A stretch of 64,000 nucleotides of DNA from assembly GCF_030295385.1 (NCBI RefSeq), contig NZ_AP027079.1:2232001-2296000 (forward strand), in the 5' to 3' direction. Below, piece by piece: positions 7,490 to 38,067 of the stretch (its first letter is position 1; every line of letters starts with the position of its first letter). This DNA comes from Geothrix oryzae (GTDB lineage Bacteria; Acidobacteriota; Holophagae; Holophagales; Holophagaceae). The position numbers were made by a program, and so were the translations under genes. Under the pieces are notes generated by a model that ran no database searches, was not told the origin of the DNA, and saw only the letters and a program-made list of their open reading frames with translations.

Positions 7490-8524
7490 ATGCCCCCCGA
7501 CCCGCTCCGCCCGCCGGCCCCCTGGCACCAGGTGCCCTGGCATGAGCGACGCTCCTACTGGGAGCTGGAACCGGCGGAGCGGCGGGACCTCCGGGGGGCC
7601 CTGGAGGCCGAGGCCGCAGGCTTGGCCCGCCGTTCCGACGCCGCCCTGGACGACTACGCCACCCGGCCCGGCACCCTGGACGGCCAGCTGGTCAACGGCG
7701 ATGTGCTCGCCACCCTGCTGCCCAGCCTCCGCCGCAATCCCACGCAGGGCTACGAGGCCCTGGAGGATCCGGCGGGACGCGCCTCCGTCCACCTGAACGC
7801 CCTGGGCAAGCGGCTGCGGGACCGCGCCCTCGCCCGCGCCCACGGTGAGCCCGTGATCCTCTTCATGGGCGGCCAGGCCACCGGCAAGACCACCGGCGCC
7901 CTGGCCCTGGGGCCGGCCTTCGGCGCCGTCTTCGACGCGCCCCACACCGATCCCGAGGGCGTCGCCTTCCTGCTGGGCCGCATCCGGCGCGAGGGCTGCG
8001 GCGAGATCCACCTGGCCTACACGGATCGCGACCCGGAGGGCTCCCTCCGGGCCATGCTGGCCCGCTCCGAGCGCGAGGGGCGCTATGTGCCCCTGGACCG
8101 CATGGCCCGGGCCCACGCCTGGGCACCCTTCACCTTCCTGGGTCTGGCCCCGCGGGTGGGCCGCTCTCTGCAGGTCTACCATGTGCGGGTGGACGAGGAA
8201 GGATCGGGCCGCATGACCGAAGGCCAGGATGCCCTCGCCAGCGTGCGCGCACGGCCCAAGCCCGTGGAATCGGTGGTTGCCTACCAGCTCCAGACCGCTT
8301 ACCTTTCTCTTCTGAGGAACCCCACCCATGATCCCCAAGCCTGGTACCCGCGAGATGTCCTCGCAGGACTCAATCGAACGCTCGACGCCTGGCGCCGAAG
8401 CGAAGCCGACCATCTCCTTCGCCGCTTTTTCGACGCTGTGGCGCAGCGAGGTGCCGAAGGTGATCCAGGCCCACGAGGAGCACCGCCTGGAAGTGCGGCG
8501 GAGCCTGGGGCTGGCCTAGGCTGA
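7490..8524 (+). CDS. zeta-toxin-like P-loop kinase
   Basis: A 344-residue open frame. A Walker A motif, GGQATGKT (127-134) in a V-I-L-F-M-G context, and the overall pattern resemble zeta-toxin/AAA-type small kinases that phosphorylate nucleotide sugars or other small molecules. No obvious antitoxin precedes it. From about 8310 on, the third codon positions of this frame lose their GC bias while the +1-shifted frame gains it, so the last ~70 residues may not be natural protein. Either the gene is overlapped by the small ORF at 8328, or a frameshift/assembly error has fused frames. The family call is moderate and the C terminus is uncertain. Confidence 0.55.
   Translation: MPPDPLRPPAPWHQVPWHERRSYWELEPAERRDLRGALEAEAAGLARRSDAALDDYATRPGTLDGQLVNGDVLATLLPSLRRNPTQGYEALEDPAGRASVHLNALGKRLRDRALARAHGEPVILFMGGQATGKTTGALALGPAFGAVFDAPHTDPEGVAFLLGRIRREGCGEIHLAYTDRDPEGSLRAMLARSEREGRYVPLDRMARAHAWAPFTFLGLAPRVGRSLQVYHVRVDEEGSGRMTEGQDALASVRARPKPVESVVAYQLQTAYLSLLRNPTHDPQAWYPRDVLAGLNRTLDAWRRSEADHLLRRFFDAVAQRGAEGDPGPRGAPPGSAAEPGAGLG
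8328..8519 (+). CDS. small hypothetical protein overlapping the zeta-like gene
   Basis: A 63-codon ORF in a different frame from the zeta-toxin-like gene and entirely inside its 3' end. It has a plausible ribosome site (TGAGGAA, 8 bp upstream), begins MIPKPGTREM and ends EEHRLEVRRSLGLA. Its codons have strongly GC-rich third positions, as in true genes here, whereas the enclosing frame loses that bias over the same bases. I do not recognise the product. It could be a separate small gene (for example a partner of the kinase) or the true C terminus reached by a frameshift; an in-frame TGA at 8313 limits it upstream. Confidence 0.5.
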   Translation: MIPKPGTREMSSQDSIERSTPGAEAKPTISFAAFSTLWRSEVPKVIQAHEEHRLEVRRSLGLA

Positions 8525-14040: not shown

Positions 14041-15195
14041 ATGTTCGGTACCCGGCTGGTCGATGCTGGGGACTACTGGAGTCAAGCCTTGATCACGCCG
14101 GGGGTTCCCGCCTTCCCGATCCTCTCCGCGGGGATCGCCGCCATCGCCCTCCTGGGCTGGTGGCGCGCGGCCGCCCGGAGCCGGGCCCTGGGCCACCTGG
14201 CCGCGGACCTGTCCCTCGAGATCGACCGGCTCCGCGAGGACCTCAGCCGCATGGAGGAGACCGCCAGCTTCGATCGGCTCACCGGCGCCTGGAACCGGCG
14301 CCGGTTCGACGAGGCCGCCGCCTCGGAAATGGGCCTGGCCCGCCGCCGGCGCGCCCCGCTCTCGCTCATCATGCTCGACCTCGACCACTTCAAGCGGATC
14401 AACGATGCCTTCGGCCATCCGGTGGGCGACACGGTGCTGGCCGGCGCCGCGGCCGCCTTCAGGCCCGTGCTCCGCACTTCGGATGCCCTGATCCGCTGGG
14501 GTGGAGAGGAATTCCTGGTCCTGGCCCCCGCCACCACCCTCGAGGGGGCCATCAGCCTCGCCGAGCGCCTGCGGACCGCCCTGGAAGCCACGCCCTTCCC
14601 CAACGCCGCCCCCATGACCCTCAGCGCCGGCGTGGCGGAATACCTGGATGGCGAGTCCCCGGAGGCCTGGGTGGCCCGTGCCGATCAGGCGCTCTACCGG
14701 GCCAAGGCCGAGGGACGCAACCGGGTCATGGCCAGCCGGAATGGGGGCCCTTCCGGCAACCAGCGGGGCCCGAACCTGCTCGAACTGGTCTGGGAAGAGG
14801 CCTACGGCAGCGGCCACCGCCTCATCGACGAGCAGCACATCCTGCTGTTCGACCTCTCGAACGCCCTCCTCTCCGCCCTGCTGGAGGGCCAGCCCCCGGC
14901 CGTGGTGGAGTCACACCTCGACACCCTGCTCCACCACGCCGAGAAGCACTTCCGCGACGAGGAGGCTCTCCTCCGGAAAGCCGCCTATCCCGATCTTCCG
15001 GAGCACCACGCCGAGCACGCCCGGCTCCTCGCCTCCGCCCACCGCCTGCAGGCGGAGCTGAAGGCGGGCCGGATCGATTTCGGCCGTCTGGTCACCTACC
15101 TCGCCACGGATCTCGTGAAGGGCCACCTCCTCACGGAGGACCGCCACTACTTCACCCACTTGAACGCGAGCCTGGGGCAGGAGTCCCGGGCCTGA
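14041..15195 (+). CDS. diguanylate cyclase with C-terminal hemerythrin domain
   Basis: 384 residues. One N-terminal membrane segment (about 24-42) is followed by a short coiled linker (50-75), a GGDEF domain (78-232) and a hemerythrin domain (250-376). The cyclase active site is G154-G-E-E-F158, with an inhibitory-site motif R145-T-S-D148 exactly five residues before it. The hemerythrin ligands appear complete: H259/H266, H303, E307, H322/H326, H362, D367. It should make c-di-GMP from GTP under control of a diiron site that binds O2 or responds to redox/NO. Transcription is probably coupled to tadA. Confidence 0.92.
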   Translation: MFGTRLVDAGDYWSQALITPGVPAFPILSAGIAAIALLGWWRAAARSRALGHLAADLSLEIDRLREDLSRMEETASFDRLTGAWNRRRFDEAAASEMGLARRRRAPLSLIMLDLDHFKRINDAFGHPVGDTVLAGAAAAFRPVLRTSDALIRWGGEEFLVLAPATTLEGAISLAERLRTALEATPFPNAAPMTLSAGVAEYLDGESPEAWVARADQALYRAKAEGRNRVMASRNGGPSGNQRGPNLLELVWEEAYGSGHRLIDEQHILLFDLSNALLSALLEGQPPAVVESHLDTLLHHAEKHFRDEEALLRKAAYPDLPEHHAEHARLLASAHRLQAELKAGRIDFGRLVTYLATDLVKGHLLTEDRHYFTHLNASLGQESRA

Positions 15196-15214
15196 GCCGG
15201 GCTCGACTCGAGCC

Positions 15215-16294
15215 TCAGCGCGCCTCGAGCATCCGCACGGCGAAGGTCGCGAGCCAGTGCTCGCCCTCGTAGCTGCCGGAGGCCAGATGGGGCAGCGAAG
15301 CCCGGGCGTGCCGATCGGCGGAGCGCAGCAGGGCCGCCCGCCGGGGGTTCTTCGCCCCGAAGGTCCGGGCGAGGTCATACAGCGCCCGCGCGCGGCTCAG
15401 GTTCAGGCCGTCCAGGTGAACGATCTTGGGATCGGTGCGATCCGAGACCCGGGCCGGGGCGAGGGTTCCGGGCAACCCCGGCAGGAAGCCCTCGAGCCAC
15501 ACGCCGAAGCGGCCCCGGGGCAGGACTTTCGCCATGAGGGCGGCCTCCTCCAGGCAGGGCGACAGAAAGTCCTCGCCCCCCGGCTCCCAGGCCAGGGGCC
15601 CCCGGCGGTCCTGGCCAAACCAGCTCTGCGCCCGATCGAGGACCGCGGCCTCCAGCCGGGCGTCCTTCGCCGCGCGCGCGTAGTCCAGGGCCAGATCCAG
15701 GCTGAAGGCCGAGTTGGGATGGACGCCCGTGCGGATGGGATAGGTCTGCTTCGGCAGGAAGTCCAGGAAGGCCCCCGCCACGCGATCCGCCAGCGGCTGC
15801 AGGGCCGCCGACCAGCGCCGGGCCTCGGGCGCGTCCCAGGTCTTCAGCTCCGCCGCCAGCTTGAGCAGCCAGGCCCAGCCGTAGGTCCGCTCGAAACTCC
15901 GTCGGCCGGGCTGGTCGAAATAGGCCACCTCCGCGGCCAAGGGCCCCGGGGCGAGGTTCTCTTCGAGCACCGCGCGGATCTCGGCGGCCTTCGCCATGTC
16001 CGGATGCGTCCGCAGCAGCCGCACCAGCATCCAGTGGCCATGGACTGAGGAGTGCCAGTCGAAGCAACCGTAGAACGCCGGGTGCAGCGCCTTCGGGGAT
16101 TTCACCTCCCCGGCGCCGTTCATCACATGATCCAGCTTGTTCGGGTATTCCTGCCGTGCGCATTTCAGCGCCAGGGCCGCGAAACGGTCCGCGGCCGCAT
16201 CCGTCAACGCGAAATCCGCCTCCTGCGCGGACATCGACACCGCTGCCGTCACCCCCAGCATCCCCATGCCAATCAATCTCAGCCCGCCCCTCAT
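15215..16294 (-). CDS. DUF2891 family secreted protein
   Basis: About 359 residues from the ATG at 16294, giving a signal peptide (MRGGLRLIGMGMLGVTAAVS, cleavage near SAQ). The HPAFYGCFDWHSSVHGHWML segment, the YGWAWLLKLAAEL helix and GVHPNSAFSLDLALDYA are typical of DUF2891 proteins, which have an alpha/alpha-barrel look and no assigned activity. A longer open frame extends upstream into the neighbouring gene, but the signal peptide and spacing favour this start. It converges with the diguanylate cyclase gene, 19 bp apart. Confidence 0.82.
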   Translation of the reverse strand: MRGGLRLIGMGMLGVTAAVSMSAQEADFALTDAAADRFAALALKCARQEYPNKLDHVMNGAGEVKSPKALHPAFYGCFDWHSSVHGHWMLVRLLRTHPDMAKAAEIRAVLEENLAPGPLAAEVAYFDQPGRRSFERTYGWAWLLKLAAELKTWDAPEARRWSAALQPLADRVAGAFLDFLPKQTYPIRTGVHPNSAFSLDLALDYARAAKDARLEAAVLDRAQSWFGQDRRGPLAWEPGGEDFLSPCLEEAALMAKVLPRGRFGVWLEGFLPGLPGTLAPARVSDRTDPKIVHLDGLNLSRARALYDLARTFGAKNPRRAALLRSADRHARASLPHLASGSYEGEHWLATFAVRMLEAR

Positions 16295-16362
16295 GCCAGC
16301 CTCCCGGATGCTGGATTCTAGCGGGCGCGGCGGCCCTCGGCGGTGGGCCCAAGCACCTGGCC

Positions 16363-17004
16363 TCAGCGTCGGCCAGCCTTCGAGACGCAGAACCGGCACA
16401 CGGCGCCCCCCTTGGCGATGCAGGTCTCCAGGTGGACGCTCATACCGGAGGCCTGCTCGATCAGACTCACATCGAACTGGCAGAGCTCCGGGTGCACTTT
16501 GGCCACGGAGTGGTAGACGCAGTTGACGGCCTCGATGGCGGCCTCCCCGGGCGCCTCTCCCGGCTTCAGGACGGCCCGGTAGCCCAGGTCGTTCATGAGC
16601 GCGGTGACCTTCCTCAGCCGCTGCGCGGGCGGATCGGCGGGGCTCACCGGACTTTCCAGCGAGGCCGCCACGGCCCCCGCCAGGTTCTTCATGAAGGCTC
16701 TCGCGCCGCCCGGCCCCAGGTCCGAGGCCAGCTGGGCCAGGATGGCGTTGGCCAGCCAGGAGTACTTCTTGGGGAAGGTGTCGATCCCTTCGTCCGAGAT
16801 CAGGTAGCGCCGGCGCGGCCGGCCCACGGCCCCTTTCGTGTCCGCGTAGGTCAGGTAGCCGAAATCCAGCAGCCTCAGGACATGTTGCTGCACCGCGGTC
16901 CGCGTGAGGGCCAGGTGCGCCGCCAGCTCATCGAGCGAGGCGCCCTCGTGGTGGCCGAGCAGGTGCTCCAGGATCTTGCGCTGGTTGTCGTGCAGGTTCT
17001 TCAC
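16363..17004 (-). CDS. ArsR/SufR-like winged-helix regulator with a cysteine cluster
   Basis: 213 residues. An N-terminal winged helix-turn-helix (about 10-75; LDELAAHLALTRTAVQQHVL and the wing GRPRRRYLIS) is followed by an effector domain with five Cys: C162, C175, C195, C203 and C206. The C-x12-C spacing and later Cys pair recall SufR-type Fe-S-binding repressors of the COG2345 group. It is therefore a candidate redox/iron-sulfur sensor. It is transcribed divergently from the diheme cytochrome/DoxX pair, with an AT-rich inverted repeat between them that is a likely operator. Confidence 0.75.
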   Translation of the reverse strand: MKNLHDNQRKILEHLLGHHEGASLDELAAHLALTRTAVQQHVLRLLDFGYLTYADTKGAVGRPRRRYLISDEGIDTFPKKYSWLANAILAQLASDLGPGGARAFMKNLAGAVAASLESPVSPADPPAQRLRKVTALMNDLGYRAVLKPGEAPGEAAIEAVNCVYHSVAKVHPELCQFDVSLIEQASGMSVHLETCIAKGGAVCRFCVSKAGRR

Positions 17005-17035
17005 GGCCGCCTCCCGGGCGCATCGGCTGAGGAGA

Positions 17036-17052
17036 GTTTAAACAATTTAAAC
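17036..17052. promoter_or_regulatory. AT-rich inverted repeat, candidate operator
   Basis: A perfect 7-3-7 inverted repeat (GTTTAAA CAA TTTAAAC) lies in the 125-bp gap between the winged-helix regulator and the cytochrome gene. It is 32 bp from the regulator start and about 78 bp from the cytochrome start. It stands out strongly in this GC-rich sequence. Its place and symmetry suggest the binding site of the adjacent regulator and overlap with both promoters; this is inferred. Confidence 0.55.
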
Positions 17053-17129
17053 ATTCTTGTTTGTTTTTATTGAGCCCCTAGATTCAGGTGGTGAACCGCT
17101 GAAGCGCCCGCCCGGGCAAGGAGTCCATC

Positions 17130-18356
17130 ATGAAACTGCCTCTGAGATACGCCCTGACCCTCCCGGTCGCGGCCCTGCTCATCGCCGCCGGCTGCTATTC
17201 CAACCATCGCGCTGGAGCCATTCCGGGCGAACCGCCCCTGGATCCGGCCCTGGTCGCCCAGGGCAAGGCCATCTTCCGCGATGACACCTTCGGGGACGAG
17301 GCCTTCTGGACCGACGCCCTGGGCATGCACCAGGTGATCGCCTCGGCTGTGGATCCCACCACCGCCCTGTCCGTGGGCCTGAAGGTGGATGCCGAGGCGC
17401 TGCCCCCGGCGGTGGTCCAGGGGATCCAGAGCGGGGCCATCAGCCTGACGGATCCCGCCACGACGGTGGCCCTGCTGAAGCTCAACGCCGTCGTGGGCGT
17501 GAAGGGCACGGTGGAGAGCGTCAACGGGAAGGACACCCTGACCCGGGTCGGCATCACCTGCGCGCTGTGCCACTCGACCGTGGACGATTCCTTCGCGCCG
17601 GGCATCGGCAGGCGCCTGGACGGCTGGGCCAACCGCGACCTCAATCCGGGCGCCATCATCGCCCTCTCCCCCGCAGTGCCCTCGGGCGCCAAGGCCGTCT
17701 ACGCCTCCTGGGGCAAGGGGAGGTACGATCCCCGCTTCAACCTCGACGGGCAGAACGGGCCCCAGGTGATCCCGCCCGCCTACGGACTCCTGGGCGTGCA
17801 CAGCGTCACCGCCACCGGCGACGGCAGCGACCTCGCCTACTGGAACCGGTATGTGGCCGTGACCCAGATGGGCGGCCAGGGAAGCTTCTCCGAGCCCCGC
17901 ACCGGCGTGAGCGTGACGCACGGCACCACCGACCTGGTGTCCGCCAAGCTGCCAGCCCTCCAGGCCTACCAGCTGAGCCTCACCGCGCCGCGGCCGCCGG
18001 CCGGAAGCTTCGATGCCGCCGCGGCGGTCCGGGGCAAGGCGGTCTTCGATGGCCCGGGGAAATGCGCCACCTGCCACTCGGGCCCGGCGTTGACCGACGC
18101 CAATATCCGGCTGCACCCACCCAGCGAAGTGGTCAGCGAACCCGAACCGGCGGGCGTGCCCAGCTACGCCTCGCGGAGCGCCACCAGGCAGTACCGGACC
18201 GCCCCCCTGGCCGGGCTGTGGCAGCACGCGCCCTACTTCCACAACGGCACCGCCCCCTCGCTGGACGCGGTCGTCGAGACCTACGACGCCCGGAAGGGCC
18301 TCGGGCTGACGAGCGCCCAGAAGGCCGACCTCGTCCAGTACCTGAAGAGCCTGTGA
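17130..18356 (+). CDS. diheme c-type cytochrome lipoprotein
   Basis: 408 residues. A lipoprotein signal ends in the lipobox I-A-A-G-C22. Two heme-binding motifs are visible: C144-A-L-C-H148 and C312-A-T-C-H316. The C-terminal part (PLAGLWQHAPYFHNGTAPSL...) resembles the second domain of MauG/cytochrome c peroxidase-type proteins. It would be a periplasmic, membrane-anchored electron carrier or oxidoreductase. The DoxX-like gene follows 31 bp later with a good ribosome site (AAAGGAACC), so the pair is an operon. Control by the divergent Fe-S-type regulator is likely. Confidence 0.85.
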   Translation: MKLPLRYALTLPVAALLIAAGCYSNHRAGAIPGEPPLDPALVAQGKAIFRDDTFGDEAFWTDALGMHQVIASAVDPTTALSVGLKVDAEALPPAVVQGIQSGAISLTDPATTVALLKLNAVVGVKGTVESVNGKDTLTRVGITCALCHSTVDDSFAPGIGRRLDGWANRDLNPGAIIALSPAVPSGAKAVYASWGKGRYDPRFNLDGQNGPQVIPPAYGLLGVHSVTATGDGSDLAYWNRYVAVTQMGGQGSFSEPRTGVSVTHGTTDLVSAKLPALQAYQLSLTAPRPPAGSFDAAAAVRGKAVFDGPGKCATCHSGPALTDANIRLHPPSEVVSEPEPAGVPSYASRSATRQYRTAPLAGLWQHAPYFHNGTAPSLDAVVETYDARKGLGLTSAQKADLVQYLKSL

Positions 18357-18387
18357 GCCCCATCTCCCGAAAGAAAGGAACCTGACC

Positions 18388-18786
18388 ATGAACGACAAAA
18401 TGAATTCGAGCTGGTGGGCCCTGCGCATCGGCCTCGGCGCCGCGCCCTTCCTGGCCGGACTGGACAAGTACTTCAACCTTCTCGCCAAGTGGGAGCTCTA
18501 CCTGAATCCCCTGGCGCTGCGCCTGATCCCCGTCTCCCCCGCGACCTTCATGCACGCCATCGGGTTGGTGGAGATGGCCGTGGGTCTCGCCATCCTCACC
18601 CGCTGGACCCGCCTGGGCGCCTATGTGGCCGCGGCCTGGCTCGTGGGCATCGCCCTGAACCTGCTCGCCATGGGCGCCTTCCTCGATGTGGCGGTCCGCG
18701 ACCTCCTGCTCGCCCTCGCCGCGCTCACCTTGGCCCAGCTCACAGAGGCCCGGCAGGCCGTGGCCGAAGGCCGGATCCCGGGATGA
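18388..18786 (+). CDS. DoxX-like four-helix membrane protein
   Basis: 132 residues with four hydrophobic segments. WALRIGLGAAPFLAGLDKYF at the N terminus, followed by HAIGLVEMAVGLAILTRWTRLGAYV, is the DoxX/DoxD-like pattern. These small inner-membrane proteins are often associated with quinol/thiosulfate redox chemistry. It directly follows the diheme cytochrome gene and probably works with it in electron transfer; its substrate is unknown. Confidence 0.78.
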   Translation: MNDKMNSSWWALRIGLGAAPFLAGLDKYFNLLAKWELYLNPLALRLIPVSPATFMHAIGLVEMAVGLAILTRWTRLGAYVAAAWLVGIALNLLAMGAFLDVAVRDLLLALAALTLAQLTEARQAVAEGRIPG

Positions 18787-18847
18787 AGCCCGCCCGCACC
18801 TCCCCGAGGCTGGATTCTCCCCGCCGGTTTGATAGAATGACCGTTCC

Positions 18848-18937
18848 GGAGAGATGGCCGAGTGGTTGATGGCACCGCACTCGAAATGCGGAGACGGGGA
18901 AACCTGTTCGGGGGTTCGAATCCCTCTCTCTCCGCCA
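18848..18937 (+). tRNA. tRNA-Ser(CGA)
   Basis: A 90-base class II tRNA. The acceptor stem GGAGAGA/TCTCTCC is perfect, the anticodon loop reads CT-CGA-AA within a GCA..TGC-closed stem, there is a long variable arm, the T-loop is GTTCGAATC-like, and CCA is encoded. It decodes UCG. A terminator hairpin begins 4 bp after CCA, and the 196-bp tandem repeat starts at its very 3' end. Confidence 0.95.
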
Positions 18938-19383
18938 TCTGCGCCCCGCTCAGCGGGGCGCTTTCATTGGCGGAGGGAGAGGGATTCGAAGTCACTGAAA
19001 GGCTGGCAGGTAGCCGTAGGCCTCGGCAGCCCGGGGGGCTGTCGGGGCCGTGAAGCGGCGTGCCAGCCTTTCGTGCGGCCGGAGGGGACGCGGCGCAGCC
19101 GTGGCCCCGGAGGGAATCCCGATGCCCGATCCATCTGCGCCCCGCCCAGCGGGGCGCTTTCATTGGCGGAGAGAGAGGGATTCGAAGTCACTGAAAGGCT
19201 GGCAGGTAGCCGTAGGCCTCGGCAGCCCGGGGGGCTGTCGGGGCCGTGAAGCGGCGTGCCAGCCTTTCGTGCGGCCGGAGGGGACGCGGCGCAGCCGTGG
19301 CCCCGGAGGGAATCCCGATGCCCGATCCATCTGCGCCCCGCCGCAGCGGGGCGCTTTCATTGGCGGAGGGAGAGGGATTCGAA
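18935..19383. repeat. 196-bp tandem repeat with inverted tRNA-Ser 3' ends
   Basis: Two full units (18935-19130, 19131-19326) and a partial third (19327-19383) repeat with a period of exactly 196 bp. Each begins CCATCTGCGCCCCGC, forms a terminator-like hairpin, and then carries an inverted copy of the last 23 bases of the upstream tRNA-Ser (18968-18990, 19164-19186, 19361-19383; the middle copy is exact, the others differ by one base). The remainder of a unit has a 12-bp stem (18997-19008 with 19061-19072) enclosing more GC-rich hairpins. Open frames crossing the array look like composition artefacts. After the third fragment, 19384-19489 holds only the pepD leader. Confidence 0.9.
18941..18961 (+). 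terminator. terminator hairpin after tRNA-Ser(CGA)
   Basis: A 9-bp stem GCGCCCCGC / GCGGGGCGC with a 3-base loop is followed by TTT. It sits just past the tRNA CCA. Nearly identical hairpins recur in the second and third repeat units, near 19137-19157 and 19333-19354. Confidence 0.75.
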
Positions 19384-19489
19384 GTCGCGTCCTCCCGGCA
19401 CCCGTGATCCCCGTCACGCCCTGCCCCTTTCCCGGCCGGTACAGTTGATGGAACCGCCCCGGCTGCCTGGCTGGGCGCATGGAGGTTTT

Positions 19490-20944
19490 GTGGACGCGCT
19501 GCTCGAATCCCTCGAACCGAAAGCCATCTGGTCCTACTTCCTGGAGCTGTCGAAGATCCCGCGCGGATCCAAGCAGGAGCAGGCGGCGGCCAAGTGGGTG
19601 CTGGACCAGGCGAAGGCCATGGGGCTGGACGCGCAGCAGGATGCCATCGGCAATGTCATCGTCCGCAAGCCCGCGACCCCGGGCCGCGAGAAGGCGCCCA
19701 TCACCGTGCTCCAGGCCCATGTGGACATGGTCTGCGAGAAGAACGAGGGCACCCAGCACGACTTCCTGAAGGATCCCATCCGGGTGGTGCGCGACGGTGA
19801 TGTGCTGCGCGCCAGCGGCACCACGCTGGGCGCCGACAACGGCATCGGCGTGGCCGCGGCCATGGCCGTGATGGCCGCCAAGGACATCGCCCACGGGCCG
19901 CTGGAGTTCCTCATCACCATCGACGAGGAGACGGGCCTCACGGGCGCGGGCAACCTCCAGCCCGGACTTCTCAAGGGCAAGTACTTCCTCAACCTCGACA
20001 GCGAGGAGGAGGGCGACCTCACCATCGGCTGCGCGGGAGGCATGGACACCGTCGCCACGAAGACCATGAAGCTCGTGGCCCCCGCCCCTGGCTCGAAGGC
20101 CTACCGCGTGAAGGTGCTGGGCCTCAAGGGCGGCCACTCCGGCATGGAGATCCACCAGGGCCGCGGCAATGCGCTGCGCATCCTGGGCCAGATCCTCTTC
20201 CGGGTGGTGCCCGCCTTCGATCTCCAGGTGGCCTCCTTCACTGGCGGCAACAAGCGCAACGCCATTCCCCGCGAAGCCTCGGCCACGGTGTTCCTGAACC
20301 CCGCCAAGGAACCCGCCCTGAAGGCCGCGCTGGCGACGCTCCAGAAGGAGATCCAGGACGAACTGGGCGCCTTCGACCCGACCCTGGCCCTGGACCTGAG
20401 CCCCGCCTCGGAGGCCCCGGCCCAGGCCTTCGCCGCCGATGACGCCGATGCGGTGACCGACTTCCTGTTCGGCATGGTGCACGGCGTGGTGGCCATGAGC
20501 CCCGACATCCCCGGGCTGGTGCAGTCCTCCACCAACCTCGCCATGATCGCCACCCAGGGCAACCAGGTGGAGGTCTGCCTCAGCCACCGCTCCTCCGTCG
20601 AAAGCGCCAAGTACGCCGTGGCCGATCGCGTCCAGGCCATCTGCCGCCTGGCGGGCTTCACCACGAAGCGCGGCGACGGCTACCCCGGCTGGAAGCCCGA
20701 GCCCAACGCCTCGCTGGTGAAGGTCGTGAACGGCGTCCATGCGAAAGTCTTCGGCAAGGCCATGGGCATCAAGGCCATCCACGCCGGCCTGGAATGCGGC
20801 CTCATCGGCGAGAAATACCCCGCCATGGAGATGGTCTCCTTCGGCCCCGACATGTGGGATGTGCACACCCCCGACGAGCATGTGAGCATCCCCTCCGTCG
20901 GCAACTTCTGGAAGCTGCTGGTGGCGGTTCTCGAGGCCGTGTAG
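19490..20944 (+). CDS. pepD: aminoacyl-histidine dipeptidase (M20 family)
   Basis: 484 residues from the GTG at 19490, chosen because GGAGG lies 4 bp upstream and the protein then begins MDALLESLEPKAIW, as in PepD; an ATG at 19448 is the alternative. Metal-site motifs are H77-V-D79, G-A-D116-N-G and D145-E146-E147-T-G. A long dimerisation/lid insertion lies between residues ~200 and 400. It hydrolyses Xaa-His dipeptides in the cytoplasm. It lies just after the tRNA-Ser-linked repeat array and before tRNA-Ser(GGA). Confidence 0.93.
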   Translation: MDALLESLEPKAIWSYFLELSKIPRGSKQEQAAAKWVLDQAKAMGLDAQQDAIGNVIVRKPATPGREKAPITVLQAHVDMVCEKNEGTQHDFLKDPIRVVRDGDVLRASGTTLGADNGIGVAAAMAVMAAKDIAHGPLEFLITIDEETGLTGAGNLQPGLLKGKYFLNLDSEEEGDLTIGCAGGMDTVATKTMKLVAPAPGSKAYRVKVLGLKGGHSGMEIHQGRGNALRILGQILFRVVPAFDLQVASFTGGNKRNAIPREASATVFLNPAKEPALKAALATLQKEIQDELGAFDPTLALDLSPASEAPAQAFAADDADAVTDFLFGMVHGVVAMSPDIPGLVQSSTNLAMIATQGNQVEVCLSHRSSVESAKYAVADRVQAICRLAGFTTKRGDGYPGWKPEPNASLVKVVNGVHAKVFGKAMGIKAIHAGLECGLIGEKYPAMEMVSFGPDMWDVHTPDEHVSIPSVGNFWKLLVAVLEAV

Positions 20945-20952
20945 CCCCTCCG

Positions 20953-20986
20953 ATCACGGCCCTTGGCCCGCAGCCGGGGCCGTGAT
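20953..20986 (+). terminator. hairpin downstream of pepD
   Basis: A 10-bp stem ATCACGGCCC / GGGCCGTGAT with a 14-base GC-rich loop lies 8 bp after the pepD stop and before tRNA-Ser(GGA). There is no U-tract, so termination is a moderate inference. Confidence 0.5.
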
Positions 20987-21020
20987 AACCTTGCTGCTTC
21001 CGCCGATCAGCGGAGCCACG

Positions 21021-21111
21021 GGAGAGTTGTCCGAGTGGCTGAAGGAGCACGATTGGAAATCGTGTAACGGTCAAAAGCCGTTCGGGGGTTCGAATCCCCC
21101 ACTCTCCGCCA
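21021..21111 (+). tRNA. tRNA-Ser(GGA)
   Basis: A 91-base class II tRNA. The acceptor stem GGAGAGT/ACTCTCC is perfect, the anticodon loop is TT-GGA-AA on a CACGA/TCGTG stem, the variable arm is long (ACGGTC...GCCGT), the T-arm is standard and CCA is encoded. It decodes UCC and UCU. Its 3' end is not repeated downstream, unlike tRNA-Ser(CGA). Confidence 0.95.
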
Positions 21112-21116
21112 GTATG

Positions 21117-21138
21117 GAAGCCGCCGCCAGGCGGCTTC
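21117..21138 (+). terminator. terminator hairpin after tRNA-Ser(GGA)
   Basis: A 9-bp stem GAAGCCGCC / GGCGGCTTC with a GCCA loop, followed by TTTC, begins 5 bp after the CCA end of the tRNA. Confidence 0.75.
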
Positions 21139-21306
21139 TTTCATGATGGCCCGCCGTTCGTGGACCGGCTTGTTCCGGGCGTATCCTGTTCCGAGATACC
21201 AGGGGAGAGAACCGAAGGCCCCTGCCTTGAACCACCGCGAAGCGGGTATCGAACTGGTTGATTCGTTCTTCTCCCACCGCAGGCTTGGCCGGAAGGAGGT
21301 CCTTCG

Positions 21307-21819
21307 TTGAGCGAATTCTCCCAGCGGCCCCCGGCCGACGATCCCCGAGACCGTTCCCTGACCGCCGGGCTGGCGGCCGACCACCGCGCGATCGACGGCC
21401 TCTTCATCGAGGCGCAGACGGCCATGGAGGACGGGCTGCCGGACGGGGCCCACCGGGCGCTGGACCGGATCTGGATGCGCCTGGCCGTTCACATCCGCGC
21501 CGAGCACAAGGTGGTCTTTCCGGCATTGGCGCAGGGTCAGCCCGATCTCCAGACGGCGCTTCAGGCCCTTCGCGAGGACCACGACTTCTTCATGGCCACC
21601 CTGGCGACCGCCGTGCAGGGCCTGCGCGGCCCGTCACCCGACCTGACTTCAGCCCGGGCGGCGATGGAGGCGGTGCAGCTGCGCCTGACCGCGCACAACG
21701 CCCTCGAGGAGGACCGGATCTACCCGGAGGCGGACCGGCTGCCCGGGGCGGAACGAACGTGGATCATCCGGGAAGTGGCCCGGGAACTGGCCTTCCTCCC
21801 GCGGCGCCACGAACCCTGA
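21307..21819 (+). CDS. hemerythrin-like domain protein
   Basis: 170 residues, starting at TTG 21307 with AGGAGG 7 bp upstream. It is a four-helix hemerythrin/HHE-type protein: LAADHRAIDGLF, HIRAEHKVVFPAL, EDHDFFMATL and LTAHNALEEDRIYP carry the His/Glu residues expected to bind a diiron centre. It differs from the bacteriohemerythrin at 37.4 kb. It may bind O2 or NO or assist iron handling. Its 3' end converges with the pentaheme cytochrome gene, 2 bp apart. No promoter motif was recognised in the 195-bp upstream gap. Confidence 0.8.
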   Translation: MSEFSQRPPADDPRDRSLTAGLAADHRAIDGLFIEAQTAMEDGLPDGAHRALDRIWMRLAVHIRAEHKVVFPALAQGQPDLQTALQALREDHDFFMATLATAVQGLRGPSPDLTSARAAMEAVQLRLTAHNALEEDRIYPEADRLPGAERTWIIREVARELAFLPRRHEP

Positions 21820-21821
21820 CC

Positions 21822-22337
21822 CTACTTCCCGGGCATCTTCTTGAGGTCCATCCGCGAAGCGCGATGGGGGAGCCGGGTGTTGAGCTTGTCCAGGAAGGCC
21901 CCGTCGTGGCACTTGCCGCAGGTGGCGTCCATGTTCTTCCGGGCCACCTTGGAAGCCGGATCGCTCTTCGTGACGATCTCATGGGCCTTGCCGTGGCAGG
22001 AGGCGCAGGTGGCCGCGTGGTCCTTCCCCTTCATGCGGGCCAGGCCATGCACGCTGTTGGCGTAGTCCTTGGCCTCGTGGGCATGGCAGCGGGCGCACTT
22101 CACCGGCGGCAGTTTTTCGGGATGCGGGAGCTCGGTGATGGCCGTGTGGCACTGGACGCAGGCCAAGCCGCCGTGGGCGCGGGGGCGGAACGCCTCCAGG
22201 TCCACCTGGTCGTGGCAGGCGACGCAGTCTTTCGCCTGGGGGGGCGGTGCGGCGGCCAGAGCCAAGGCCGATGCGAAGGACAGAACCAGGGTCAGGGCGG
22301 GGGCGAGGGCACGGGAACCCACGGGCAGCAGTCGCAT
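21822..22337 (-). CDS. pentaheme c-type cytochrome
   Basis: 171 residues from the ATG at 22337, which has AAGGAGG upstream and opens a signal peptide (MRLLPVGSRALAPALTLVLS...). Five heme-attachment motifs follow: CVACH, CVQCH, CARCH, CASCH and CGKCH, with extra His (HGGLA, HAHEAK, VHGLA) for axial ligation. It is a small periplasmic multiheme electron carrier, plausibly part of an extracellular or anaerobic respiratory route. No partner oxidoreductase is adjacent. Confidence 0.9.
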   Translation of the reverse strand: MRLLPVGSRALAPALTLVLSFASALALAAAPPPQAKDCVACHDQVDLEAFRPRAHGGLACVQCHTAITELPHPEKLPPVKCARCHAHEAKDYANSVHGLARMKGKDHAATCASCHGKAHEIVTKSDPASKVARKNMDATCGKCHDGAFLDKLNTRLPHRASRMDLKKMPGK

Positions 22338-22395
22338 GGGGGGCCTCCTTGGGGGATGTGGCCACCACCCTAACACACCCGACCTGCCAGTCGCC

Positions 22396-23184
22396 TCAGG
22401 CGGCGTAGGTCTTGTAGAAATACCAGGCCGTCAGGACGAACCCGATGCTGATGACGCCGAAGCGCACGGTGGTGCGACCCACGCGGTGGGCCATGTGGGA
22501 GCCGAAGAGCCCGCCCAGGCCCGCGGCGACGGCCATGAGGCCCACGATGCCCCACTGGACATTGCCCGGATGGCGCAGGTATTCCATCCCCAGGAACGCG
22601 AAGATCGCCACGCCGTTGATGCAGAGGGCCAGCAGGTTCTTCAGGCCGTTCATCTGGTGGATGTCCGTGAGCCCCAGCAGGCTCAGGGCCGCAAGCATCA
22701 GGATGCCGATGCCGGCACCGAAGTAGCCGCCGTAGATGCCGACGATGAACTGGAAGACCATTGCCCCGATCCACCATCCGGCCGTCCGGTCGTGGCCTCC
22801 GATCTTCTTCAGCAGCTTGTTGACCGGATCATTGGCCGCCAGCAGCACCGTGGCCGCCAGGATCAGCCAGGGCACCAGCTGATCGAAGACCTTCTGAGGC
22901 GTCACCAGCATGAGCCAGGCCCCGAGCGCGCCGCCGAGGAGCGAGACCGGCATCAGCCGCAGGGCGAATTCCTTCGTCCCCGCCAGGTCCTCGCGGTGGC
23001 CCCAGAACCCGCCGATGGAGCCGGGCCACAGGGCGATGGTGCTGGTGACATTCGCCTGCTGGCCCGTGAGGCCGATGCCCAGCAGCGCGGGGAACGACAC
23101 GAGCGTGCCGCCCCCTGCGATGGAATTGATGGCTCCGGCGAGGAAGGCCGCCGCCATGACCGTGAACGCGTGTCCGATGTGCAT
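22396..23184 (-). CDS. TSUP (TauE/SafE) family permease
   Basis: About 262 residues from ATG 23184; a TTG at 23214 would add ten. It is highly hydrophobic with about eight membrane segments. FLAGAINSIAGGGTLVSFPALL at the N terminus is the hallmark of the TauE/SafE sulfite/organosulfonate exporter family, and a second half repeats the pattern (GIYGGYFGAGIGILMLAALSL). It would move sulfur-containing or organic anions across the inner membrane. It lies directly downstream of the substrate-binding protein gene on the same strand. Confidence 0.9.
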   Translation of the reverse strand: MHIGHAFTVMAAAFLAGAINSIAGGGTLVSFPALLGIGLTGQQANVTSTIALWPGSIGGFWGHREDLAGTKEFALRLMPVSLLGGALGAWLMLVTPQKVFDQLVPWLILAATVLLAANDPVNKLLKKIGGHDRTAGWWIGAMVFQFIVGIYGGYFGAGIGILMLAALSLLGLTDIHQMNGLKNLLALCINGVAIFAFLGMEYLRHPGNVQWGIVGLMAVAAGLGGLFGSHMAHRVGRTTVRFGVISIGFVLTAWYFYKTYAA

Positions 23185-23225
23185 GCCATCCAAGATGACA
23201 GGCCCGGCGGACAATCAGAAGGCGG

Positions 23226-24374
23226 CTACTTCCACCGGAAGGGATACACCGGTTTCTTCGTACCGTACTCCGGCGGCCACACGGTTTCGTGCTTTCCGTT
23301 CTGGATCTGCTCCACCAGCATCTGGTGCCGGTTCTGGTTCGTGTAGCCGTTGTAGTCCACGAACCGCACCGGGCCCATGATGCCGTTCCAGGTGCCCTCG
23401 CGCAGCGCCGCGCGGGTCTTCTCGCGATCACCTCCCGCCTTCGCGGCGGTCTCGACCATCACCATCATCGAGGCGTAGGCATTGGCGGCGTGATAGGGGA
23501 CTTCGTCCTTGCCGAACTTGGCCTTGTACCGCTTGCCGAAATCCTTGGCCCCGGGCCAGCTCACATCCGTCGTCCACTGGGTGCTCGAGAACACATGGCT
23601 GGAGATGGCCTGCTCGCGGGCGAACTCGGAGGAGGCGAAGCCCGCGCCTGCGCCCAGGAAGGCCTGGGGCTGGAGGCCCACCTCCCGCGCCTGCCGCATG
23701 AGCAGGATGCCGTCGGCCACATAGGAGACCATGAAGACCAGGTCGGGCTTGAGGCCCTTGACCTTGGCCAGGGTGGAGCGGTAGTCCGGCGAGCCTGACG
23801 CGTAGGCCTCCTCGGCCACCACCTGGATGCCCACCTGGGCGGCATAGGCCTTGGCCGACTTGGCGCCGGAGGTGCCGAAATCCGTGTTCTCGTTGAGGAT
23901 CGCCATGGTCTTCGGCTGGCCCAGCTTCTGGGCCATGGAAATGAGGATGGAGGCGTAGTCCTCGGTGGTGGCGCTGAGGCGGAAGACGAACTTCTGGTTC
24001 TGGCGCGTGATGTCCTCCTTCGAGGCCACGGGCACCAGGAGCGGCACCTTGTACTTCTCGGCCAGCTTTGAGACCGCGTTGGCGCAGGCGGAGCTGTAGG
24101 GGCCCACCACGGCCGCCACGCGATCGCGGGTGACGAGCTTCTCCATGGCGGACATGGACACCTGGGGCTTGCCCGTGTCGTCCTCGATCACCAGTTCCAC
24201 CTTGATGCCCTTCTTCAGCAGATCCTCCAGGGCCAGCTTGTAGCCGTTGCTCATGTACTCGCCGATGGGGGCCTGGGTGCCGGTCGCGCAGTTGATGACG
24301 CCGATCTTCAACGGCGCCTGGCCCTGCAGGGCGAGACCGGATGCCAGCAGCAGGGAAAGAATCCCTCGGTTCAT
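23226..24374 (-). CDS. branched-chain-amino-acid-type ABC substrate-binding protein
   Basis: 382 residues with a signal peptide (MNRGILSLLLASGLALQGQA). It is a type I periplasmic binding protein (Peripla_BP_6/LivJ-like): APIGEYMSNGYKLALEDLLK, AVVGPYSSACANAVS, and VPLLVPVASKED for ligand loops, then NENTDFGTSGAKSAK and later GPVRFVDYNGYTNQ. No cognate permease or ATPase is in the window; a TSUP permease follows, so transport components may be encoded elsewhere. The ligand is unknown. Confidence 0.9.
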   Translation of the reverse strand: MNRGILSLLLASGLALQGQAPLKIGVINCATGTQAPIGEYMSNGYKLALEDLLKKGIKVELVIEDDTGKPQVSMSAMEKLVTRDRVAAVVGPYSSACANAVSKLAEKYKVPLLVPVASKEDITRQNQKFVFRLSATTEDYASILISMAQKLGQPKTMAILNENTDFGTSGAKSAKAYAAQVGIQVVAEEAYASGSPDYRSTLAKVKGLKPDLVFMVSYVADGILLMRQAREVGLQPQAFLGAGAGFASSEFAREQAISSHVFSSTQWTTDVSWPGAKDFGKRYKAKFGKDEVPYHAANAYASMMVMVETAAKAGGDREKTRAALREGTWNGIMGPVRFVDYNGYTNQNRHQMLVEQIQNGKHETVWPPEYGTKKPVYPFRWK

Positions 24375-37805: not shown

Positions 37806-37980
37806 GGCCCGAGGCCTCCCTTGGCGTTCGACAACCTGCAAGACCCGGGTGCGTCGGCGGAGGGCTGCCTGGGCACGGGAATCCTGATCATGCTAACGAC
37901 AGTTGAATGTAAACTTCTGGCGACCTGCATATCAAGTGATTTGAGACTGTCGACTGCAAAACGCCCAAAAAGGGCCGAAC

Positions 37981-38067
<87 letters not shown>

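Follow-up and report, generated by a model that had tools for sequence, protein, structure and literature searches.

tRNA genes are classic landing sites of phages and genomic islands, and the att sites of islands and prophages are copies of the tRNA 3' end that start in or near the T-arm and border the inserted unit. A different kind of folded element, the integron attC site, is marked by the motif GTTRRRY. The available part of PMC3733652 describes REP/BIME elements of the GTAG family as small, folded intergenic repeats that carry a GTAG tag by the hairpin, form clusters and lie downstream of genes. The same part of that text places GTAG repeats in other phyla and, for Acidobacteria, mentions tyrosine transposases flanked by other inverted repeats.

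The locus analyzed here lies in a window of 64,000 nucleotides from the Geothrix oryzae genome (G000:C1:2232001-2296000; G000 is a single contig of 3.27 Mb). Behind the tRNA-Ser(CGA) gene of this window stands an array of two tandem members of a tRNA-anchored family of folded repeats, an assignment in which we are confident. The family has two classes of core, A and B. Like att sites, its units are bordered by copies of a tRNA 3' end that start in or near the T-arm; unlike them, the units carry the tail in inverted form as well, hold no genes, and at three sites have their core outside an island. With REP/BIME elements the repeats share small size, folding, intergenic clustering downstream of genes and, in class A, the GTAG by the hairpin. 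They differ in standing almost only behind tRNA and tmRNA genes rather than dispersed between ordinary genes, in measuring about 90-140 bp, and in having copies of the host tRNA tail on either flank. The RAYT-type domain (Y1_Tnp) is absent from 42 of the 47 Geothrix genomes, G000 included, and present in the other five, and a RAYT-driven REP was rejected on that ground.

The cores are folded DNA of a size similar to attC, and G000 does have an integron. Its integrase (TIGR02249, 465.8 bits against a cut-off of 265) and three to four attC-like repeats of 125 nt make up a chromosomal integron at L340:1-3016 (G000:C1:579500-582515). However, GTTRRRY is present on both strands in none of the 19 class A seeds and none of the six class B seeds, with the attC array of G000, which has the motif, as control, and the cores show no sequence match to the attC repeats of this genome; attC identity was therefore rejected. 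The Rfam model sX4 (RF02223) matches window positions 18840-18980, spanning the tRNA-Ser, the next hairpin and the start of the inverted tail, but the match scores 36.7 bits, below the model's gathering cut-off of 70, and ends at 18980, before the core. We note that sX4, called a proteobacterial sRNA, may itself be a tRNA-Ser with its 3' flank. At gathering score, Rfam returns tRNA and tmRNA alone at nine element loci and tRNA alone in the array stretch of the window, and identity with an Rfam family was rejected as well. A literature search covering few subscription journals, and the available parts of PMC11124144 and PMC3733652, gave no description of such elements, that is, of a repeat apparently restricted to tRNA genes that carries the end of its host gene in both orientations. 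An earlier note on this DNA had considered that the layout might be a conserved and known tRNA spacer; it is conserved in Geothrix, but that search did not turn it up as a known one.

Anatomy of the array

The host gene tRNA-Ser(CGA) occupies positions 18848-18937 on the + strand (ARAGORN; Rfam tRNA model, 60.3 bits). A tandem repeat with a period of 196, 2.3 copies and 98% matches extends over 18935-19386 (Tandem Repeats Finder). Three inverted copies of the last 23 bases of the gene follow downstream, each preceded by a terminator-like, G+C-rich hairpin detected by a hairpin scan. In the first unit, this hairpin (18941-18961, + strand; nine G-C pairs and a T-containing tail) leads to an inverted tail (18968-18990, - strand) that matches 22 of 23 bases of the tRNA 3' end and ends at the T-loop TTCGAA. 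A structured class A core of 138 nt (18983-19120, + strand) overlaps the inverted T-loop and folds into a long hairpin plus a second, shorter one. The long hairpin (18997-19072, + strand) bears the GTAG, and its arms, at 18997-19008 and 19061-19072, were recognized as an inverted repeat and by DNA folding. The unit closes with a decayed direct copy of the tRNA tail (19114-19136, + strand), which belongs to direct repeat D3 (19114-19145 is 75% like 18918-18949) and is far better kept in a relative, L028.

The second unit repeats this order, with hairpin (19137-19157, + strand), inverted tail (19164-19186, - strand; 23 of 23 identical), core (19179-19316, + strand) and decayed direct tail (19310-19332, + strand; again D3). 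Its core is identical to that of the first unit (tandem-sister identity 1.0), and both score 154.4 bits with the class A covariance model R1 (E 5.3e-33 for the first copy, which belongs to the training alignment of the model). The third unit is a hairpin that is one base longer (19333-19354, + strand) and an inverted tail (19361-19383, - strand; 22 of 23), with which the array ends, and nothing more. Within the window, R1 reports the two array cores alone; the next matches are the same hairpins on the other strand, followed by matches with E of at least 0.11.

When the 150 nt that follow the tRNA are shuffled 200 times, the inverted-tail match is never equaled. Folded as single-stranded DNA, the tail, terminator and inverted tail reach -38.9 kcal/mol (z -10.7), so that the long hairpin or cruciform proposed in the earlier note can indeed form. 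The 196-bp units that it described, with a terminator hairpin and inverted 23-base tails of which one is exact and two have a single mismatch, are confirmed, except that the last spacing is 197 bp; the direct tails and the 138-nt core were missing from its account. Its remark that no integrase is nearby is also borne out, as none of the ten neighboring proteins at 14041-24374 has an integrase or transposase domain according to Pfam (protein 5 is without any Pfam match). An assembly artefact was rejected, since in further genomes one to three units stand behind this tRNA or others, and the array sits in a single-contig genome.

Elsewhere in the window, tRNA-Ser(GGA) at 21021-21111, 2 kb away, is without an element, and in many relatives the same gene is followed by one to three units. 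The stretch 37880-38067 behind tRNA-Leu(CAA) resembles, by eye, a decayed start of class A, and R1 reports nothing there; genome G009 has a class A copy behind this same tRNA.

Core classes, distribution and host genes

R1 was built from an alignment of 26 class A cores (A1) and the class B model, R2, from six copies. Class A is found in 42 of the 47 Geothrix genomes (R1, E <= 0.001) and class B in 45. The 26 class A copies share 33 invariant columns, part of them unpaired, and their GGTAG columns are at least 90% conserved; GTAG is not seen in the class B consensus. The class B core is about 90 bp long and is often present in tandem, mostly at spacings of about 122-132 bp. In G000 it stands behind the Asp, His, Met, Arg(TCT), Pro(TGG) and Pro(GGG) tRNAs, and a longer class B variant was located by regular expression behind Pro(CGG). 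In some class A cores (L178, L140, L043, L052 and L173), a further repeat of about 95 bp is nested within the hairpin or adjoins it.

The family is largely confined to one lineage. One array unit used as DNA query, the search that the earlier note had proposed for Holophagaceae, matches 21 of 41 genomes, all of them among the 25 of the same genus, and none of the 16 from other families of the class. Across 297 genomes of the phylum, R1 finds class A in 25, of which 24 belong to the same family. The 25th is G164 (family f5), where the hairpin part lies behind a tmRNA-type tail on a 10-kb contig with an integrase adjoining; this match may reflect either transfer or contamination. A pattern scan of a named genome collection (84,980 species) gives 58 stretches, of which 35 were confirmed by HMM (34 in Geothrix or Holophagaceae, one in Acidobacteria) and the remaining 23 were dropped as chance. 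One class A core has no match in 50,697 phage and 72,556 plasmid records, and in viral contigs the core patterns give a single class A match, which the HMM did not confirm, and none for class B. This spread through genus and family, the conserved core and the existence of two classes had escaped the earlier note.

The position of class A was evaluated at 60 loci picked by hand from R1 matches, with copies called by HMM. Of these copies, 67 of 69 lie within 700 bp of the 3' side of a tRNA or tmRNA gene and on the same strand; of the remaining two, one adjoins an island (L119) and one is near a contig end (L131). For first copies the distance from the gene is 40-62 bp, apart from two tmRNA loci with 175 and 176 bp. 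The hosts include all four Ser tRNAs, Gly(CCC), Gln(TTG), Glu(CTC, TTC), Leu(CAA) and tmRNA, and weaker R1 matches that the HMM missed lie behind Cys, Val, Phe, Met and Arg(TCT) tRNAs. In G000, the Ser(GGA), Gln(TTG) and Gly(CCC) genes are without the element that some relatives carry there. For class B, 45 of 58 copies (30 loci) are behind a tRNA; the other 13 come from five loci, four of which are short contig-end stretches. Four single-contig genomes give a similar picture, with all 16 class A matches of R1 at tRNAs (one truncated and overlapping the tRNA end) and, for class B, 14 of 15 behind tRNAs among the matches listed (15 of 34). The class B exception, G020:C1:2273820, has no RF00005 tRNA nearby. 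tmRNA genes that carry the element were seen at L055, L123, L134 and L146; at some of them another hairpin comes first, and about 175 bp separate the gene from its first complete class A copy.

Local tails, fold and inheritance

The tails match the gene behind which the repeat stands. At 96 distinct loci, gapped alignments compared the inverted tail with the tail of the tRNA in front of it and with the tails of every other isotype in the set. The own tail exceeds the mean score of the other isotypes at 95 loci and even their best score at 85. Within the Ser isoacceptors, the own tail is best in 27 cases, ties in 15 and is surpassed in six. Without gaps the result is weaker (own tail best at 60 of 96), since indels then lower the score of a tail. 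The direct tails that follow the core are weaker than the inverted ones: they are strong in 24 of 82 full cores, and in 38 of the 82 the own tail fits better than that of every other isotype. Some reach the CCA intact, as at the Val, Phe, Cys and Met tRNAs of L140, L148, L121 and L161. Many class A tail copies run from the CCA to the T-loop; those of class B and several of class A extend beyond the T-loop or are without the CCA end. As one class is found behind many isotypes with local tails, the copying of the tail must belong to the settling of the repeat.

In G000, 39 tRNAs were amenable to the test, and 11 of these bear an inverted tail that is significant (p <= 0.01), with scores of 16.5-22, the next best score being 11. 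Eight of the 11 have a core detected by HMM or covariance model, namely Ser(CGA), Ser(GCT), Asp, His, Met, Arg(TCT), Pro(TGG) and Pro(GGG); for Pro(CGG) and Val a core was located by regular expression or by eye, and for Ser(TGA) a remnant by eye. No significant inverted tail is present at 30 tRNAs in four genomes from other families, these being the best-scoring 30 of about 168. Together, these two results indicate that the tail seems to arrive with the core; tRNA terminators in these genomes do not in general have one. The earlier note had suggested that the element may be tRNA-derived; the conserved core is not derived from tRNA.

The fold of class A is supported by covariation. In 86 distinct sequences, 36 of 39 pairs are changed on both sides and 95.5% of the cells pair, in an alignment that was fitted to the model, which favors G-U. 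Double changes number 463; shuffles average 123, and slid controls do not exceed 89. The type of imperfect pair bears on whether DNA or RNA is folded. In the core helices of 55 representatives, G-U cells outnumber A-C cells by 55 to 28 (p 0.004), and counted by columns the figures are 26 and 21 (p 0.56). The acceptor and T stems of 46 tRNAs of G000, taken as control, have 38 G-U and two A-C. Folded as DNA, the + strand of the core does better than the - strand (z -4.7 versus -2.4). The G-U to A-C ratio, unlike that of tRNA stems, points to DNA folding or to palindrome correction while copying, as opposed to a pure RNA constraint; this is suggestive only, because decaying copies also add A-C. 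The 2:1 excess of G-U by cells leaves room for RNA.

Class A copies are for the most part inherited in place at their locus. For 77 labeled copies, the nearest neighbor outside the own array is behind the same tRNA in another genome in 47 cases (17% expected), behind a different tRNA in another genome in 28, and behind a different tRNA in the same genome in two (3% expected). Tandem sisters are 0.96-1.0 identical in 10 of 18 pairs and 0.38-0.93 in the other eight, so that part of the arrays are old or mixed. Where G000 has two units, G002 has a single one. These comparisons speak for a slow turnover of class A, with arrays that grow in tandem and, from time to time, a jump from one tRNA to another, as with Ser(GCT) in G008 and Ser(GGA) in G006 (0.94). 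The earlier suggestion of a mobile element is thus right in part: one class with local tails behind many tRNAs must have moved, but most copies are inherited in place.

Origin and spread of the repeats

We favor, with a probability of about one half, a reading in which the array consists of two units, in tandem, of a non-coding and lineage-specific selfish repeat with rare spread via T-arm homology and with tandem duplication. The identity as a repeat family is well supported; the route of spread we infer from the anatomy, that is, from the T-arm borders, the local tails, the direct tails that suit slippage, and a search that found no dedicated enzyme. The unit consists of the terminator hairpin, the inverted 3' end of the host from the CCA back to the T-loop, the folded core (of class A in this array, of class B at other loci) and a direct, often decayed copy of the 3' end. 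In the scheme that we propose, the repeat would be selfish and slow-moving, with no enzyme of its own. Its rare arrival at a new tRNA gene would take place by a template switch during repair or replication at the shared T-arm sequence GGTTCGAATCC, which borders the cores, and would leave the new copy between copies of the new host's tail. The direct tails would then permit copy number to rise and fall by slippage or unequal exchange, and the fold would act on, or be copied as, single-stranded DNA.

Several observations count against parts of this scheme. The 33 invariant columns and the long persistence suggest some function beyond being copied, which speaks against a selfish repeat. An enzyme may take part in the spread, given the tyrosine recombinases in 46 of 47 genomes and the integron integrase of G000. 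Eight sister pairs are dissimilar, and strong direct tails come after as few as 24 of 82 cores. Two copies depart from the usual placement at tRNAs, namely the class B copy G020:C1:2273820 and the class A copy of L119/L193, which is flipped relative to its tRNA.

A functional RNA would account for the strong covariation (36 of 39 pairs), the invariant columns of class A, the constant orientation (67 of 69), the locus-wise inheritance and the excess of G-U over A-C cells. The core would then be transcribed, by read-through from the tRNA or alone, for a role in tRNA 3' processing, termination or a stress response, and the host would need its copies. Against this, the element is patchy, being absent behind three G000 tRNAs named above; the terminator comes before the core; a simple consensus scan of 18750-19500 gives no promoter-like site; and A-C mismatches are far commoner than in tRNA stems. 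We regard this explanation as doubtful and are moderately confident that the repeats are selfish DNA rather than host RNA. It is more improbable still that a REP- or MITE-type hairpin owes its movement to a single-strand transposase (RAYT) or to the integron integrase of the genome, which would prefer tRNA T-arms. The GTAG beside the class A hairpin, the DNA-like fold and the integron integrase of G000 would agree with such a hairpin, but G000 is not among the five genomes with the RAYT-type domain, the attC core motif is missing from one or both strands in every seed, and the copies are not dispersed among ordinary genes. Priming of reverse transcription by tRNA, where the inverted tail would be a primer-binding site and plus-strand synthesis would copy the tRNA end up to the T-loop, has a parallel in retroviral primer-binding sites and fits the many class A tail copies that start at the CCA and stop at the T-loop. 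We consider it highly improbable, as G000 and 31 others of the 47 genomes are without a reverse transcriptase domain (15 have one) and the class B tails, with several of class A, pass the T-loop or are without the CCA end.

The units could also be the leftovers between two att copies (tRNA 3' ends) of tyrosine-integrase phages or islands. Direct tails do border some cores (strong in 24 of 82), and related integrases adjoin cores at three islands. At all three, however, a tRNA or tmRNA tail copy lies between integrase and core and thus places the core on the chromosomal side. In L193, the tail is at 1079, the integrase starts at 1267 and the core is at 899-1036, with a same-strand tail at the intact tRNA at 14726; in L194, the tail is at 8160, the integrase starts at 8372 and the core is at 7977-8114; in L195, the tail is at 815, the integrase starts at 1101 and a hairpin is at 700-763. 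Both ends of the island are visible in L193 (G006) alone, where the core is flipped relative to the tRNA. Plain att duplication was rejected because the cores are outside the islands at these sites, in agreement with the earlier note. Given also that one class A core has no match in the phage and plasmid records, we judge an origin from islands unlikely. The L193 island (L193:1079-14814, about 14 kb, with a P4-like integrase) is located at tRNA-Ser(CGA), and its flipped far-end core is what inversion between palindromic tails would give.

Returning to the selfish repeat, we suggest tentatively that it could be a new kind of enzyme-less mobile DNA that uses the T-arm, common to nearly all tRNA genes, as a landing strip. 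Each move would then copy the tail of the new host both ways, so that the tRNA gene would never be broken and the copy would always look local. The family would offer a natural system for studying spread by T-arm homology and would explain copy-number changes behind tRNA genes; classes A and B define two folded families that the Rfam searches did not recognize. On the practical side, ORF listings put long open frames across such arrays.

Finally, tyrosine recombinases similar in size and span to the integron integrase were seen by eye in many genomes of the genus. In G055, an attC-like repeat (L152:3613-3736) that is 89% similar to the G000 repeats follows the tRNA-Gly element at a distance of about 800 bp, and an IS200-type transposase gene directly adjoins a class B copy (G055:C1:2191956-2192586).
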